Shown here: in pieces, positions 12,811 through 53,228 of the stretch
Position numbering within the stretch: the first letter of the stretch is position 1
Layout of the letters: the number at the start of each line of letters is the position of its first letter
Source: Macrophomina tecta
Taxonomy: Eukaryota; Ascomycota; Dothideomycetes; Botryosphaeriales; Botryosphaeriaceae
Assembly: GCA_024180945.1 (NCBI GenBank)
Contig: JAKSGN010000043.1
Coordinates: 806,001-870,000, forward strand
Reading direction: 5' to 3'
Length of the DNA: 64,000 nucleotides
Position numbers and translations under genes: made by a program
Notes under the pieces: generated by a model
The model's input: only the letters and a program-made list of their open reading frames with translations
Database searches by the model: none
Told to the model about the DNA's origin: nothing

Positions 12811-14766
12811 TCATATCACAAACTGCTCGAACCGGCCTTCAGCGAGCAGCATCATGTGATCGACCCGTCTCCCTCCCAGCTTGTCCTGCTCCTCCACAAC
12901 AGCCTTCAGACAAGCGCAAGCTCGTGCATAGTTCTTCCCGTACTTGATCAGGCCCCGGAAGCGGTCAAGGATCCAGGCGCGGTGGATGAGATCGTCCGTC
13001 TCCATGCCCGCAAAGAGCAGTGGCAGCGGAATCCGAGCGAGAAACCGCTCGCCGTCGTGCTTGTAGCCCTGGTACGAAAGGTTCATGATCTCGTGCAGCG
13101 CTCGCTTTTGCGCGTCCGTGGGCGCCGCCAGCGGGGCCGCAAAGTGCCTTAGCCGCAGGTATTCCAGCTCCATGGCGTAGTAGTGCGGCACAACGTATCG
13201 GATGTTCTGGTACAATCGCCGGCTGTGGTCAACGTCAGGGCTTAGCCGCGACGCCAGCTCCAACAACTCGCCGAACTCGTCTCGCAGCAGGTTGAACGCA
13301 AATTCGATGTCCTGGGCGCGGCGCGCCGCCTCTTGCTCGTCACCGCGATGCAGAGCGGCGCTGAACTCGGCGTTCTCATACCGGATGAGCGCGGCTTTGG
13401 CATACAGGCTGTACACCTTGCGGTTATCCATGTCGTCCACCAGCTCCGCCTGCGGGTAGCTTTCGCCCCACGTGGTGCGGAACAACGGCTCGCTGTACAT
13501 GTGGATCGAGTTGAAGCCGCGCAGCAGGCGGGCCTTGTCTTCCCCAGCAATCTGCCGCACCAGCTGATTCACCGAGCCCCCGAAGTTGGCCCCTATGCCG
13601 AACGACGCGCCAGCATCCAGCACCGCCATCCACACCATCATCCGCGCGGCAAAGAAGGATATCAACGTCTGGTTTGGAGGCGGTGAGGTCCCCGGCGAAG
13701 TTGCTTGACTCGGGCTGTCGTTATTGTACATCAAGTCCGCGTCCTCGGCTGACACTTGCAGCAGCGGCTGGAACTGGGTCCGCAGGATCGACGCGGCGCC
13801 CTGCAGGTGCTTCGACAGGCCAATCCCCCCGCCGTCGCCGTACTTTTGCTCGTACGCGATCATCAACCACAGGGCGGCCAGAACCTGGTCCAGGTCGAGA
13901 TCGCCGTCGCTAGCGCTCATTTGCTGCGTCATCAGGTGCAGGGCCGCGGTGTAGTGGGTGACTGACTTGGGTGAGTTTGGCGACTCGGCAGCCAGGACCA
14001 GTTGGTGCTGCTGGCTGGCGCGGAGATACATCAGTTCTTGGTCAGCCAGCGCGAGGATCATGTGCATGGGCATGGCATGCCGCTTGGCCTGCAGGAACAG
14101 CAGCGAGAAGACCGAGTACTCTGGGTTTTTGGTGTGGTGATTTGTCGCAAAGCGGGTGCGGTAGTAGTAGATGGCCTCGTGGTCGGCCGGGGTGAAGACT
14201 ACCGAGCACGCGGCCGCCATCTCGGGCTGCTGCAGGCCCGACGCCATGACCGCCAGGCTGTCGTGCCTGACAGATCCCCGGCGGGTGATCTGCGTTGCGC
14301 CATCGGTGGTGTTGGTGGTTGTGCCAAAGGTGGGAGGGCGGGCATAGTCCGGCGGAGACGCGGGGTCTCGGTCGCTGCTGCCGCTGCTCGTGCTGCTGCT
14401 GGACGGGCTCTGGGCGTGCTGCGAGGACGCGTCTGCCGGGCCCGCAGAGGCGGACGAGTGGGCACTGGAGGCCTTTCGAGTGTATGGCTTCCGCGGACGC
14501 GGCCTGTAGTCGCACTGGCGCCTTAGCCGAACGCAGCGCTGGCACACGGGCTTGCCCTCATCGCACTTGACCTTCTTCTCTCTGCAGGTCCAGCAGCCAG
14601 CACGGGAACGCGGGCCGCTCCGGTTGGCGTGCGGGCGCAGAGGGAGCGAGGAGGGCTGGGGAGGTGAGGTGGTGTCGTCGGTCTCGCAGCCGTGTGATTG
14701 GAGGCTCCGCGCGTGGCCGGATGTCTGAGTCTGGGTCGGTTCGGACGCGGCTGGATCAGCCTGCAT
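12811..14766 (-). CDS. Zn2Cys6 fungal-specific transcription factor
   Basis: Single exon, 651 residues from ATG 14766. The zinc cluster CWTCREKKVKCDEG ... CQRCVRLRRQC at residues ~58-85 has the exact C-x2-C-x6-C-x6-C-x2-C-x6-C spacing and a basic linker after it (PRPRKPYTRK). A Ser-rich stretch follows, then an alpha-helical regulatory half (YYYRTRFATNHH, LMIAYEQKYGDGGGIGLSKH, LQGAASILRTQF) typical of the Fungal_trans_2 group. The frame stays open 197 codons upstream of this ATG, but that part is GC-rich low-complexity leader and lies in the shared promoter, so the later ATG was chosen. Divergent from the M20 gene at 15456 and next to the Dal5-like permease, which it probably controls. Confidence 0.9.
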   Translation of the reverse strand: MQADPAASEPTQTQTSGHARSLQSHGCETDDTTSPPQPSSLPLRPHANRSGPRSRAGCWTCREKKVKCDEGKPVCQRCVRLRRQCDYRPRPRKPYTRKASSAHSSASAGPADASSQHAQSPSSSSTSSGSSDRDPASPPDYARPPTFGTTTNTTDGATQITRRGSVRHDSLAVMASGLQQPEMAAACSVVFTPADHEAIYYYRTRFATNHHTKNPEYSVFSLLFLQAKRHAMPMHMILALADQELMYLRASQQHQLVLAAESPNSPKSVTHYTAALHLMTQQMSASDGDLDLDQVLAALWLMIAYEQKYGDGGGIGLSKHLQGAASILRTQFQPLLQVSAEDADLMYNNDSPSQATSPGTSPPPNQTLISFFAARMMVWMAVLDAGASFGIGANFGGSVNQLVRQIAGEDKARLLRGFNSIHMYSEPLFRTTWGESYPQAELVDDMDNRKVYSLYAKAALIRYENAEFSAALHRGDEQEAARRAQDIEFAFNLLRDEFGELLELASRLSPDVDHSRRLYQNIRYVVPHYYAMELEYLRLRHFAAPLAAPTDAQKRALHEIMNLSYQGYKHDGERFLARIPLPLLFAGMETDDLIHRAWILDRFRGLIKYGKNYARACACLKAVVEEQDKLGGRRVDHMMLLAEGRFEQFVI

Positions 14767-15455
14767 ACTCGGCTGATGAGCGGTACCGTAGGATGGGAAA
14801 GGCAGGGAAACGATGGGACGGTGGACGCTTGACTTGCTCGCGGAGACGCGGTCTTCTTGACGAAAGAGCCGACGAATTAGCCGGCCATGGACGGCCGCCA
14901 GAGGGTTTTGGCCCCAGCCGCTGCCCGAGTCAGGCCCTCGCCTGCGAGAACAGACCGGCCAGCTGTGGCGCCCGCACTGCGCGCAAGACCGCCTCCATGG
15001 GGACGGGGGGGGTCCGGACAGTGCGCAATAAGAGCAGCGAACCCCCTGCGGAGGCACCACCGCGGGGCGCTGCGAGCGACTGCGGCGAAAAGGGGGGGGC
15101 TCCTCGTGGGCTGGAAAGAGATGGGAGATGTGGTGTTTGCGGGCGAGCGATGGACGGGAGCGAACTGCAGGCGGCGGCGCGCAGCCACAGGTGCAGCTGC
15201 GCTGGGGGGAAAGAGAGCCGGTCGGCAAATCTTCACCTCTCCGCCCAAAACGGCGAGCAAGCCGACCTCTCAACCACCCATATTGTGCCGACCTCACCCC
15301 ATCATCGCCAAATTCCACAGCCGACCACTGGCCTCGAGCTGCTGCTGCCACTAACATGTCCGCGGTCCACTTCGTCTGCGGCCGCCGCCAAAGCGATGGT
15401 GCAATAAAACCGCAGCGCCCGCCTGACTGCCGTCTCTAATGGACCCATCGCCATC
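14767..15455. promoter_or_regulatory. bidirectional promoter between the Zn2Cys6 gene and the M20 amidohydrolase
   Basis: 690 bases separate two divergent start codons. The stretch is rich in CGG/CCG triplets, the half-site usually bound by Zn2Cys6 proteins, but GC-rich sequence makes such triplets common by chance, so no operator is assigned. Confidence 0.5.
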
Positions 15456-48861: not shown

Positions 48862-49558
48862 CTTATTCTGGAAGCCTGCAAGCGCTCTAGACTCAGGTAC
48901 CGAGCCGTCTCATGAGTGGAAGGTGGGGAGTTGCGGGCGCTTCGAAGATGAAGCATATGCCATGATGCGCCCCAAGCAGCCACGGCGGCCTTCTTTGTGA
49001 CGGGGAGGCGTCGGAGGCGCCTTGCAACCGTTGAAGTCAAACCCCTCGTTTATCTGCCAAGTTCGCAACTTGTTGCAACCGCCGGCATTGGCAGGTTTGA
49101 TCAGAGCCGCAGAGCACGTGAAAAACCTGCCAGGTAGAAGGAAGGCCGAAACTGCAAACGGTGTCAGATGGGCTAGAAACATTAGTGACGAACAGCAAGC
49201 GGAAACAATGGTTCAGAGCTGGTGGCGTCGGTTTTTCTCAGCCCTCGACTTGGGGACAAAGAATTGTGGTGCCGGATGTAGAGGAGCTATGCCAAGAAAC
49301 CCTGGTGAATGACCGGAACCAAGGGCAGCTCTGGAAGACTCTGAAAGGTCAAAAGCTTCCCATGCTGGATTGCATGTCTGAGCAGTCGGCAATTCTTGAA
49401 CGAAGTATGACTGGCTGCACGTCGCTTCTCTTGTGGATGGCGGCCGATGCCAGCCTGGCAATTCATGACAACATGTGGTGTTGGATGCAGGGTTTCGAAA
49501 TCGAGTAAAAAGGATACCAACGCACGTGGCCAGGCCCGAAGAAGAGGGGGAAGAAGGT
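48862..49558. other. intergenic
   Basis: Promoter of the gene at 48861 and sequence downstream of the tRNA gene. Short frames at 49022-49508 carry no recognisable protein. Confidence 0.5.
49507..49511 (-). terminator. RNA polymerase III terminator (T5) for the tRNA gene
   Basis: Five consecutive T on the minus strand, starting about 48 bases after the tRNA 3' end. It is the first run of four or more T after the gene, so the trailer would be long. Confidence 0.45.
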
Positions 49559-49685
49559 TAGCTGCGGATGGTTTCGATCCATCACCCTCCGGGTTATGAG
49601 CCCGGCGCTACAAAGAGGGTCAGTTTACGTGTCCAGAAATGGCCTATGGGTGGACTTCTTACCGCTTCCGCTGCGCCACGCAGCT
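49559..49685 (-). tRNA. initiator tRNA-Met (CAT) interrupted by a 55-base insert in the D stem
   Basis: The 5' part is 49685-49663 (AGCTGCG acceptor, TG, GCGC D stem, AGCGGAA loop, GCG). The 3' part is 49607-49559: C, G, CCGGG stem, CTCATAA anticodon loop, CCCGG, variable loop, GATGG/CCATC T stem with loop ATCGAAA, CGCAGCT and discriminator A. Joined they give a perfect 72-base cloverleaf. The T loop beginning A rather than TTC, three G-C-rich pairs under the anticodon loop and A at position 1 mark it as initiator, not elongator. A box (TGGCGCAGCGG) and B box (GGATCGAAACC) are intact. The only oddity is the insert at 49662-49608 between the third and fourth base of the 3' D-stem strand. The gene is functional only if that insert is removed from the transcript. 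Confidence 0.85.
49608..49662 (-). other. 55-base GT-AG insert with spliceosomal intron signals inside the tRNA gene
   Basis: Starts GTAAGAAG, contains ACTGAC with the branch adenosine 13 bases before the end, a CCCTCTTT pyrimidine tract, and ends TTTGTAG. Length and signals equal those of the protein-gene introns in this window. Its removal restores the D stem exactly. GTCCA and TGGAC 15 bases apart could pair as a small hairpin. Nuclear tRNA introns in fungi normally lie after position 37 and lack these signals. Confidence 0.7.
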
Positions 49686-50708
49686 ATAATTTGAGTTAGT
49701 CCTGGAATGCATGTACGACTGGTCCCATTGTATGATAGAGCGAACCCCCGGCGAAAAATCACATGCGGCGTCCTTGGAGCTGTAATTTGCCCGTAAAGAC
49801 ACCTTGATTCCAACACGAGCGGCGAAGAGAAGCGGCACACAGGATTGAAACGTGGCTTCCACGATGGCTTTGTGCCAGCGTCACGACCAGGAGATGGAAT
49901 ACGAAGGATGGTGGAGGGTAGAGATGCGACAGTGACGGTCGTATGTCGTGGCCGCCAGTCTGCGAGGCTGGTGCCAAAACCACTCCACCTTCTGGTGCAA
50001 GCCAGCGCGGAGAGGCACGCATGCACGCGCATGTAAGTTTTCAGAGCATTTCAGTACACATGCATGCCAGAGGAATGCTCAGATCCTCACGCCTGGCAAG
50101 AGTGTGTTGGAATACCTTCCGTACTCGGAGCGGCAGCGGTCGGGGCGAGCCGACGTCGCGCTCGACCATACAGAAGACAGGACAGGGGAGGTGAGCTCGA
50201 GTCAGTGGCAGTGAAGGGCTGACCGCCGCTCTGGGCGCGGAATTGCATGCCCCTTGTCTGATGGCGGGTCAGGCTGGATGGCGGGTCAGGCTGAGTGGCC
50301 CCCAGCGGCTCGGCGGCTTGCCGACGGGAGTGCAGCAGGGCAAGAAGAGGCGTGGACGGGGAGATCGATGGAGCGCGGAGGAGGGGCCGAATTTTGAAGG
50401 CGTGCGGTGTGTGCGGGCGGTGGAGAGCGGAGAGCAGAGCGGCGAGGAGGGCGGGGTGGGCCCAAGGGACGGGTGTGCCTGCGTGCTTGCTGCTGCCCTT
50501 CCCCCGGCCAAACCCCGGCCTTTTCAGACGCGTCGCGTCGCGTCTCCCCGCCGGCCTGCAAACGGCGACACCACTGCTGTCCCACCACAAGCAATCCCCT
50601 CTAGCATCGCCTGTGCCCTCCGCAAGTTTCCTTGGCCTGTATCAGCCGCCGCTCTCTCGCATCCACTGCAACCTCGTGGCCGCCCAGAGGCTGCCTGTCT
50701 GTCCGCCA
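49686..50708. other. intergenic, promoter of the gene at 50709
   Basis: GC-rich, with compositionally open frames on both strands and no recognisable protein. The frame of the next gene stays open to 50295, but that part is leader-like low complexity. Confidence 0.5.
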
Positions 50709-53228
50709 ATGGCCGGCCGCATTAACACCCGCTTTAACCCTTTCGAGCCAGGCCGTGATGGGTTTGGTGCCGATTTCAGCAACATCGACCCCAATGATCC
50801 CGCTGCCTTCCTCAAGGCCATGGGCGCTGGCAGCGGCAACCTGCCCATGCCCACTTCTCTGCCATCTCCAGACGAAGTCCGGAAGCAAGCCCGGAACCGG
50901 TCTGCTCAGATCTTCAGGGACTGGAGCTTCCTGAGGGCCGCCATCGATCGCCATGAGGCCACCATCCAGAAGCGTTGGCTCAAAAAGACCAAAGAGCAGC
51001 GCCGTAGGATCCTGCTCACTGCTTGGCCAAACATGCCCGCTACTCACCGTCCCGATTTCGAGGCCTTTACTCGCGAAGCCGACCAAATCCCGACTGCGGG
51101 CTCCAAGTTCAAGGACGCTTATATGTGGCCCTACATCAATCAAGAGGATCTCCTCAAACCAAGGACATTGCTCCTCTTCCTGAACGCCCGTGCTCGCAAC
51201 CCACCCGACGCCTTCGCTATGGCCGACCACGGGGCCGCCCATCTCGGCTACACCACCAAAGCACTTGTGGCTCCCTTCCTGAACGAACACACTATGATGT
51301 TCACTGCCCGGAGATCTCCTGAGACATATGGAGAACTCCTTAATTGGGATGACCACCCAGACTCATTCGAGTGGATGACTTCGGGAAAGGGGATGCACCC
51401 GGGATATGGTCTCCATATATTGGAGATGCAAGAGCGCGTATGGTCATTCCTTGTCGAGTGCTGCAAACAGATCTTGCACGACATCACCCCCGACTCAATT
51501 ACCGGCGACGACTTTCCTGTCCAGCCCGAACCGCCCTCTGTCTCTGAGAACGAGACTGGGTACAGCTCGCTTGCTGTTATTGCAGCAGAGGCTCCCTACC
51601 GTGCACCCGCAAGCCTCGATCTGGAACGCCTAGAATCGCTCCTGGCCGCGAAGCTCTCCGCTGCTGAGGATCATGTGTGGGCACTACGCGAAGATCCCAG
51701 CTACTTTGCGGATTGCGTCACCGACTACAGGGAGCATCGCCAGGAAATGATCCCTGATTCAAAAGGCCAGCCACATCCAGTATTCAAATCCGGCCGGGAG
51801 AACACCTTTTGGAATCGTGTCATTGGGGAGGTTGTCGCCAATGCTTATCTTCGCTTGGAGATCTGGAACGAACTTCGTAACCATGTCATCAACTTGCAAA
51901 ATCTTCAGGCAAGGCATGCCAAAAACATCTCCATTGACAATGATCTTCCAGATGAATATTTATCCGCTCTTCTCAAGTTCCAATACTATCTGAGTCACAC
52001 TACGAAGGGTCCAATTGGACAGCTGAAGCAAGGCGCTGTTGCGTCCCCGCCTTTGCGCCGCTTCTTTGCCAGGGAGCCCCCGGAGGATCCGCGCTCGACC
52101 AGGATCCGCGTCCGGGAAAAACCTGGCAGCGAGCCTGACAAGACCCGCATGCGCCTCATGTGGCTGTTCAATGCGCTTTGGGACGACGACCGCCGCTTCC
52201 TTGCGGGCATCACCACCTTGGTCGACGAATTGGAGCGGTTGCTTCAGAGTGATGCTAAAGCAAAGGAGCTCACTTCCCCTTACATCGCCGATGTTGTGTC
52301 TGACCTCGCGGTCATGGCAGAGTGTATACGCCAAATACAACTGTACCAGCCGTGGGCTCAGACCTTCGAGTCGCACATGGTCGGGAGGGAAGACGGTCTG
52401 AAGCGAGATTGGGCTGAACGGACCAAGGGCTGGGTTCAATTCCTGGGCGTTGCCGACGGGACACCCATGGCTAACCTGGGGGATCCCTCGGATAAGAAGT
52501 TCTCCTACCCTGTGGACAAGCGGAGAACTCGGGAGAATGTTGAGGCCATGAGGCGCGCCGAGCAGCATCTGGACCTCTTCTGGAGCAAGCTCGACCAGCA
52601 CATGCTGGGGAAGAATCGGAGCCTAGACAACACTGCGGTGCGGCAACTGCTGTCGCAACCTCGGATATTACAGCGCACGCCAGAATGGGTGGAGCCGGTC
52701 AAAGCTTCGCAGAAATCAGTTGCGGATGTTGACTCCCTACGCAAGCCTCTGTCCGAGCTCTATTTCGATCTGGAGCGCCGGACAGAGCACACGATCGACC
52801 GTTCCGGCGCGTCCGCTCCCAGGACCAAGGAGAAGACCAGAGCCTCTGCACAGACTTCCGCCGAACTGGCCGCACCACCGGTTGACCCCCTTGAACATCA
52901 TCTTCCTGACAAGCAGCCTACATTCCCCGTCGATAAAAGAGCCCATAAGGTATTCTCCACACTTTTCTACTCTCCGTCCACATCATCTCAACCTGGAGAG
53001 GTGGCCTGGACAGACTTCTTGCATGCCATGACATCGGCTGGCTTTGCTCCTGAGAAACTGTATGGGTCGGTGTGGCAGTTCAGTCCCACAAAGCTGGGTG
53101 TTGAAAGAAGCATTCAATTTCACGAACCTCATCCATCAGGCAAGATTCCTTTCTTGGTGGCTCGTAGGCATGGCCGACGCCTGAACAGAGCCTACGGATG
53201 GCATGGCGGTATGTTCTTCCTTGCCTAA
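50709..53228 (+). CDS. conserved-type fungal protein, 839 residues, function unknown
   Basis: Single exon from ATG 50709 (MAGRINTRFNPFEPG). The N-terminal part has a charged helical segment (IFRDWSFLRAAIDRHEATIQ, KRWLKKTKEQRRRILLTAWP) followed by DLLKPRTLLLFLNARARNPP, a pattern seen in many large uncharacterised ascomycete proteins. The middle is alpha-helical. The C-terminus (residues ~790-839) reads RSIQFHEPHP ... LVARRHGRRLNRAYGW, recalling the small alpha/beta dsRBD-like fold of HicA-type proteins, with a conserved FH.PHP and GRRL...YGW. That resemblance is from memory and weak; I assign no activity. No signal peptide or membrane segment. The frame is open upstream to 50295, but the first 138 codons there are low complexity. 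Confidence 0.75.
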   Translation: MAGRINTRFNPFEPGRDGFGADFSNIDPNDPAAFLKAMGAGSGNLPMPTSLPSPDEVRKQARNRSAQIFRDWSFLRAAIDRHEATIQKRWLKKTKEQRRRILLTAWPNMPATHRPDFEAFTREADQIPTAGSKFKDAYMWPYINQEDLLKPRTLLLFLNARARNPPDAFAMADHGAAHLGYTTKALVAPFLNEHTMMFTARRSPETYGELLNWDDHPDSFEWMTSGKGMHPGYGLHILEMQERVWSFLVECCKQILHDITPDSITGDDFPVQPEPPSVSENETGYSSLAVIAAEAPYRAPASLDLERLESLLAAKLSAAEDHVWALREDPSYFADCVTDYREHRQEMIPDSKGQPHPVFKSGRENTFWNRVIGEVVANAYLRLEIWNELRNHVINLQNLQARHAKNISIDNDLPDEYLSALLKFQYYLSHTTKGPIGQLKQGAVASPPLRRFFAREPPEDPRSTRIRVREKPGSEPDKTRMRLMWLFNALWDDDRRFLAGITTLVDELERLLQSDAKAKELTSPYIADVVSDLAVMAECIRQIQLYQPWAQTFESHMVGREDGLKRDWAERTKGWVQFLGVADGTPMANLGDPSDKKFSYPVDKRRTRENVEAMRRAEQHLDLFWSKLDQHMLGKNRSLDNTAVRQLLSQPRILQRTPEWVEPVKASQKSVADVDSLRKPLSELYFDLERRTEHTIDRSGASAPRTKEKTRASAQTSAELAAPPVDPLEHHLPDKQPTFPVDKRAHKVFSTLFYSPSTSSQPGEVAWTDFLHAMTSAGFAPEKLYGSVWQFSPTKLGVERSIQFHEPHPSGKIPFLVARRHGRRLNRAYGWHGGMFFLA

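Follow-up and report, generated by a model that had tools for sequence, protein, structure and literature searches.

We found that every initiator tRNA-Met gene detected in the genome of the fungus Macrophomina tecta (GCA_024180945.1) is interrupted in the D stem by a short insert carrying the signals of a spliceosomal intron, and that comparable inserts lie in tRNA-Phe and tRNA-Arg genes, so that the putative phenomenon is wider than the gene from which the analysis started and covers seven genes in three tRNA families. Judging from these sequences, we hold it very likely that the inserts are removed by the spliceosome, whichever polymerase makes the precursor. With good though somewhat lower confidence, we propose that this lineage has a second, spliceosomal pathway of tRNA splicing, through which every initiator tRNA and the product of the only tRNA-Arg(UCU) gene found would pass, tying translation initiation and AGA decoding to splicing capacity, with tRNA-Phe drawn in partly and tRNA-Cys perhaps.

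The window, a stretch of 64,000 nucleotides (contig JAKSGN010000043.1, positions 806,001 to 870,000), contains at 49559-49685 on the minus strand an initiator tRNA-Met gene whose D stem is broken between bases 24 and 25 by a GT-AG insert of 55 bases. The 5' exon (49663-49685, minus strand, as for all features of this gene) comprises the 5' strands of the acceptor and D stems, the D loop and bases 1-3 of the 3' strand of the D stem; the insert, a putative spliceosomal-type intron, follows within that 3' strand (49608-49662), and the 3' exon (49559-49607) comprises the final D-stem base, the anticodon arm (CAT), the variable loop, the T arm with ATCGAAA and the 3' strand of the acceptor stem. 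The insert opens with a 5' splice-site-like GTAAGA (49657-49662) preceded by an exonic G, carries a branch-site-like CTGAC (49619-49623) 16 nt from its 3' end, and ends in GTAG, of which the TAG (49608-49610) resembles a 3' splice site. Read against the consensus motifs, both the A box (TGGCGCAGCGG, 49668-49678), upstream of the insert, and the B box (GGATCGAAACC, 49570-49580) are intact. A T5 run 47 nt past the tRNA 3' end (49507-49511) is a candidate Pol III terminator, and the longest T run within the insert is 3. The gene, its boundaries, splice signals and exons, both promoter boxes and the T5 run were thereby located as an earlier note, made from the sequence alone, had described them. 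That note had also claimed that a cloverleaf forms only when this segment is removed: deleting the GT-AG segment does give 21 of 21 pairs, while the exclusiveness needs qualifying, as 3 of 518 single deletions yield all 21 pairs together with six invariant bases. Two of these, the GT-AG cut and a cut of the same length one base upstream, give an identical product, and the third gives a product of 75 nt whose D loop is longer. ARAGORN made no call on the raw gene and called tRNA-Met(CAT) once the insert was deleted; the Rfam tRNA model scored the raw gene at 27 bits against a cut-off of 29, mistaking insert bases for the 5' half. Beside the tRNA gene, at 50295-53225 of the window (plus strand), lies an uncharacterised gene that is conserved across fungi, has no Pfam match and shows 99% identity over 82% of its open frame to MPH_01739 of Macrophomina phaseolina MS6; a regulator at 12814-15435 likewise finds its best match in M. 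phaseolina (90% identity over 74%). By these protein identities the genome belongs to M. phaseolina or a near relative of it (Dothideomycetes, Botryosphaeriaceae).

We then searched the genome (54.1 Mb, 37 contigs) with the window gene at the DNA level, yielding four loci, and with a pattern for the initiator anticodon arm (up to 2 mismatches), which returned the same four loci and no other site. The uninterrupted, spliced-form initiator sequence was not found in the 54.1 Mb with up to 3 mismatches, bringing the count of initiator genes with and without the insert, which the earlier note had named as a check, to four with the insert and no uninterrupted copy found. All four inserts lie at 24/25 (lengths 55, 58, 56 and 55 bases), start with GTAAG, end in YAG and have a branch-like motif exactly at -16, which is CTGAC in the window insert and CTAAC in the other three; T4 runs are absent from all of them. 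The A and B boxes of the initiator genes are intact, with runs of four or more T 8-47 nt downstream. After removal of the insert, ARAGORN called Met(CAT) in 4/4 genes; on the raw genes it missed three and called the fourth, on contig C6 (L003 1501-1628), a tRNA-Cys(ACA) with a 34-base intron. All four genes have the CAT anticodon, A1:U72, A54 and A60 in the T loop and three G:C pairs beside the anticodon loop, the marks of a eukaryotic initiator tRNA-Met.

The exons of the four genes represent 3 distinct sequences, in which 100% of the stem cells of 21 pairs are paired and four pairs, two in the acceptor stem and two in the T stem, are changed on both sides. This covariation, based on three distinct sequences, was matched by 7 of 500 column shuffles, and in a control in which the partner was slid by 1-3 columns, 29-42% of cells were paired, with at most one two-sided pair. 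The insert interiors are little alike (z of -1.2 to 2.0 against shuffles for 15 insert pairs, the highest values, 1.9 and 2.0, belonging to two initiator-initiator pairs). From the exon pairing and two-sided changes, together with the dissimilar interiors, all four genes look kept as tRNAs while their inserts drift outside the splice signals.

Five tRNA-Phe(GAA) genes were found, all with identical exons and an ordinary intron at 37/38. An extra insert of 57 or 58 bases at 30/31 is present in two of them (on contigs C29 and C2) and absent from the other three, so that filled and empty sites coexist in one genome. Both extra inserts have the flanks CAG|GT...AG|A and end in CAG; they start with GTCAGT (C29) and GTTCGT (C2) and have CTAAC and CTAAA, respectively, at branch position -15. 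The GTTCGT start is unusual, yet shared by one actin-family intron of the same genome. A TTTT run occurs inside one of the two inserts. ARAGORN called the C29 gene (L032 815-978) a tRNA-Arg(GCG) with an 89-base intron.

The third family is represented by a tRNA-Arg(UCU) gene on C2 with a 54-base insert at 11/12 (GTATGT...TACTAAC...AATAG), whose removal gives a full cloverleaf that ARAGORN calls Arg(TCT). One such gene was found by similarity, and its anticodon-arm pattern has one exact match in the genome and two further sites at one mismatch each; a reversed control pattern gave three. Since the pairing test accepts 30 of 518 deletions in this gene, its insert boundaries are not fixed by structure alone. 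The insert splits the A box, which in the initiator and Phe genes precedes the insert in full; the TAG end of the Arg insert, beside GCAATGG, partly restores the box, with TATATAAA upstream. Runs of four or more T lie 8-49 bases downstream of all seven interrupted genes.

Intron-aware pattern searches for further tRNAs returned 19+17 matches against 37+37 for the reversed pattern, and 13+20 against 45+45, showing no enrichment, and single matches were therefore judged by eye. Among the 36 places of the former search, one was a clear tRNA (the Arg gene), 21 were copies of one repeated element, and at C23:110104, which was examined, a tRNA model was not found. The repeated element is dispersed (e.g. 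C1:311653-311720) and has the core CTAACGATAARAAG...GTTCGAGCCC in most copies. Among the 33 places of the other search, 12 were judged by sequence and one, at C5:3539344-3539425 (plus strand), resembles a tRNA-Cys(GCA) with an insert ending in CTGAC...ACTAG just before the D stem; a second copy, whose match begins 5 bases ahead of the presumed exon, does not decide whether an insert is present, and this gene may be another case of a spliceosomal-type insert. The tRNA catalogue used here is incomplete, with 63 of 1323 Rfam candidates scored and no nuclear gene for Asn, Asp, Glu, Pro, Ile, Tyr, Trp or elongator Met in the set of loci read. It also revealed dense intron-free tRNA genes on one strand of contig C17 (125,670 bases), which is probably the mitochondrial genome.

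To compare the inserts with chance and with the genome's own introns, we collected their signals across all seven genes. All have GT...AG ends with 5' sites of U2 type (GTAAG in the four initiator genes, GTCAGT, GTTCGT and GTATGT in the Phe and Arg genes), and CTRAC, sought 10-30 nt from the 3' end, is present at -15 or -16 in 6/7. Mononucleotide shuffles of each insert reproduced GT...CTRAC...AG in about 1-2 of 10,000 cases (21 of 200,000 for the Arg insert) and the GTAAG...YAG form in 0 or 1 of 200,000; the C2 Phe insert, with CTAAA in place of CTRAC, fails this test. Six introns in genes of the actin family, located from reading frame and homology alone with the branch site ignored, start with GTAAGT (2), GTATGT, GTGAGT, GTACGC and GTTCGT, are 56-113 nt long and end in YAG, and CTRAC lies at -15 to -26 in five of them, the sixth having CTCAC at -15. 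An earlier set of four protein introns is weaker evidence, since a filter for CTRA near the 3' end had been imposed and its branch-site agreement was partly selected. In contrast, none of 28 ordinary tRNA introns has GT...AG ends (0/28) or CTRAC near the end (0/28); these remain from 31 intron-bearing calls of ARAGORN once the misread initiator and Phe genes and one duplicate of an intron are set aside, and the intron positions are ARAGORN's, with at least one (L057) looking misplaced. Four of the ordinary introns, in tRNA-Gly and tRNA-His genes (L042, L058, L062 and L068), are long (49-61 bases by ARAGORN) and have neither GT...AG nor CTRAC. The likeness of the window insert to protein-gene introns, claimed from that one gene, thus extends to introns chosen without regard to the branch site, and its spliceosomal-type reading is strengthened by the recurrence of the signals at one site in 4/4 initiator genes found and in tRNA-Phe and tRNA-Arg. 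By these signals, the tRNA inserts appear to belong to the same class as the protein introns of this genome.

A reading in which the inserts are introns of the tRNA endonuclease, defined by a bulge-helix-bulge at an odd position, with the GT-AG look coincidental, could draw on the D-arm intron of the Cyanidioschyzon merolae tRNA-Ile at 12/13, described in an excerpt from PMC9602550, and on the many ordinary 37/38 introns of the M. tecta genome, from which an endonuclease is presumably present. The inserts lie at 24/25, 30/31 and 11/12 and not at the 37/38 position of that enzyme. We scored the junctions on a 10-pair scale, allowing either orientation of the central helix as well as displaced cuts, against 2000 shuffles. 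Scores of 6-7 pairs out of 10 were obtained for the four initiator genes and the Arg gene, equalled by 686, 1369, 1141, 1152 and 1000 shuffles, respectively; with the full 3' exon, the C29 Phe gene has 6 of 10 pairs (equalled by 836/2000) and the C2 Phe gene 8 of 10 (equalled by only 53/2000), and none of the seven genes reaches 10. The minimum-energy folds of the five initiator and Arg precursors are, by eye, mutually different. A bulge-helix-bulge at both ends, which the earlier note had said would point to the endonuclease instead, was thus not found above shuffle level where insert and exons meet in the four initiator genes. We rejected this intron type for the set, six of the seven genes standing at shuffle level and C2 weakly above it, and with splice signals recurring in the inserts and in 0/28 ordinary introns, we regard removal by the endonuclease as very improbable. 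The inserts are also far too short for group I or group II introns, which, with the bulge-helix-bulge fit at shuffle level in most genes, makes the spliceosome by far the best candidate.

An explanation given still less credence is that the interrupted genes are pseudogenes and that the assembly misses an intact initiator gene. Assembly completeness is unstated, the assembly could lack such a gene, and excision is here deduced from sequence; against this, the four loci share one insertion site and show perfect pairing, four two-sided changes and T runs downstream of all, and the 54.1 Mb contain no match to the spliced form at up to 3 mismatches. Pseudogenes would not be expected to retain paired stems and splice signals while their inserts diverge, and a tRNA pseudogene with an insertion was rejected on the grounds that each of the four initiator genes found has both the insert and stems that are still paired. 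A different question, lying within removal by the spliceosome, is whether Pol II makes the precursor as part of a longer RNA, which would be spliced like an mRNA before RNase P and tRNase Z release the tRNA. The split A box of the Arg gene, which would weaken an internal Pol III promoter, speaks for it; the intact A and B boxes of the initiator and Phe genes, and the runs of four or more T past all seven genes with none inside the four initiator inserts, speak against it, as does the fission yeast U6 snRNA, which according to a passage of PMC10484740 is a Pol III RNA that is spliced, so that Pol II would not be required. We consider a Pol II origin unlikely, although clearly less so than the endonuclease or pseudogene explanations.

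As for where the inserts came from, as distinct from how they are removed, recent insertion of mobile introner-like elements might be suspected from the presence of the Phe insert in 2/5 copies and from the occurrence of introner-like elements in other Dothideomycetes. Near-identical copies of the inserts elsewhere in the genome were not found, within the sensitivity of the searches with the initiator and Phe genes, which match only their own tRNA genes, and the inserts are dissimilar to one another, although this has no bearing on a very old origin. An introner-like repeat was rejected for want of genome copies, and recent mobile insertion seems to us about as improbable as removal by the endonuclease. 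That dissimilar inserts occupy a single position in all four initiator genes suggests instead an old gain followed by duplication and drift. For tRNA-Phe, either loss in three genes or gain in two would account for the pattern. The initiator insertion context, GCG|C, is not that of a typical exon junction, and the Phe site, CAG|A, resembles one. IMG/VR and the GTDB species genomes, scanned by pattern for an interrupted initiator gene or for either form of it, gave no match, as expected of virus and prokaryote collections.

Under the spliceosomal reading, Pol III would be directed by the internal A and B boxes of each gene and transcribe as far as the T run, giving a precursor with a U2-type intron of 54-58 nt (GTNNG start, CTRAC 15-16 nt from the end in 6/7, YAG). 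The nuclear spliceosome would cut out this intron and join the exons, and only then could the D stem and cloverleaf form; processing by RNase P and tRNase Z, CCA addition and export would presumably come afterwards, in an order that we infer. In tRNA-Phe, the tRNA endonuclease would remove the ordinary 37/38 intron later, as the insert at 30/31 divides the anticodon stem and should leave before the endonuclease acts. Transcription of the tRNA-Arg gene is less clear than that of the initiator and Phe genes, its A box being split. With the intron present in each of the four initiator genes found and no empty copy detected, start-codon decoding would depend on the spliceosome, and the start of protein synthesis probably requires the mRNA-splicing machinery to cut the initiator tRNAs first.

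Nuclear tRNA introns are taught as the task of a dedicated endonuclease and ligase. A spliceosome-dependent initiator tRNA, if true, would break this rule and tie the start of translation to pre-mRNA splicing; it would also mean that tRNA genes can acquire spliceosomal introns and retain them. The Phe genes with and without the insert in one genome make intron gain or loss testable. Such an initiator tRNA would further reveal a blind spot of annotation, in which interrupted tRNA genes are missed or misnamed, and misnamed calls of the ARAGORN type in fungal annotations may mark spliceosomal tRNA introns. In a search of titles and the openings of abstracts in the open-access literature, a spliceosomal intron in a tRNA gene was not found. 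An excerpt from PMC6108506 states that a fungal tRNA gene with an intron of over 100 nucleotides had not been found, and the noncanonical-intron step of tRNAscan-SE 2.0 is described, in the part of PMC8450103 consulted, for archaeal candidates, which may be why such fungal genes have gone unseen.

Several known systems share some of these features. The canonical 37/38 introns removed by TSEN likewise lie in tRNA genes and are abundant in this genome; they differ from the inserts in position (24/25, 30/31 and 11/12 for the latter) and in splice signals, and two tRNA-Phe genes hold both kinds together. In archaea and red algae, ectopic tRNA introns fit a bulge-helix-bulge that the endonuclease recognises. 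Like the inserts described here, they lie outside 37/38, the D arm included, as an excerpt from PMC9602550 reports for Cyanidioschyzon merolae. They differ in the bulge-helix-bulge fit, which in the present genes exceeds shuffles weakly in one and not in the other six. Messenger-type introns occur in fungal U3 snoRNA genes, in other snRNA genes and in U6 genes of basidiomycete yeasts; these too are spliceosomal introns in genes for non-coding RNAs, whereas their hosts are not tRNAs and several are Pol II transcripts. We judge the nearest precedent to be the mRNA-type intron of the fission yeast U6 snRNA. A passage of PMC10484740, citing Tani and Ohshima (1989), describes this intron as spliced and as lying near catalytic bases, for which reason it is thought to stem from reverse splicing. 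In M. tecta, one U6 match covers the whole model and has no intron (47 of 2731 candidates scored). The fission yeast U6, as that passage presents it, resembles the interrupted tRNAs in being a small Pol III RNA with an mRNA-type intron, and it differs in being a component of the spliceosome, the proposed reason for its intron, whereas the hosts here are tRNAs of three isotypes.
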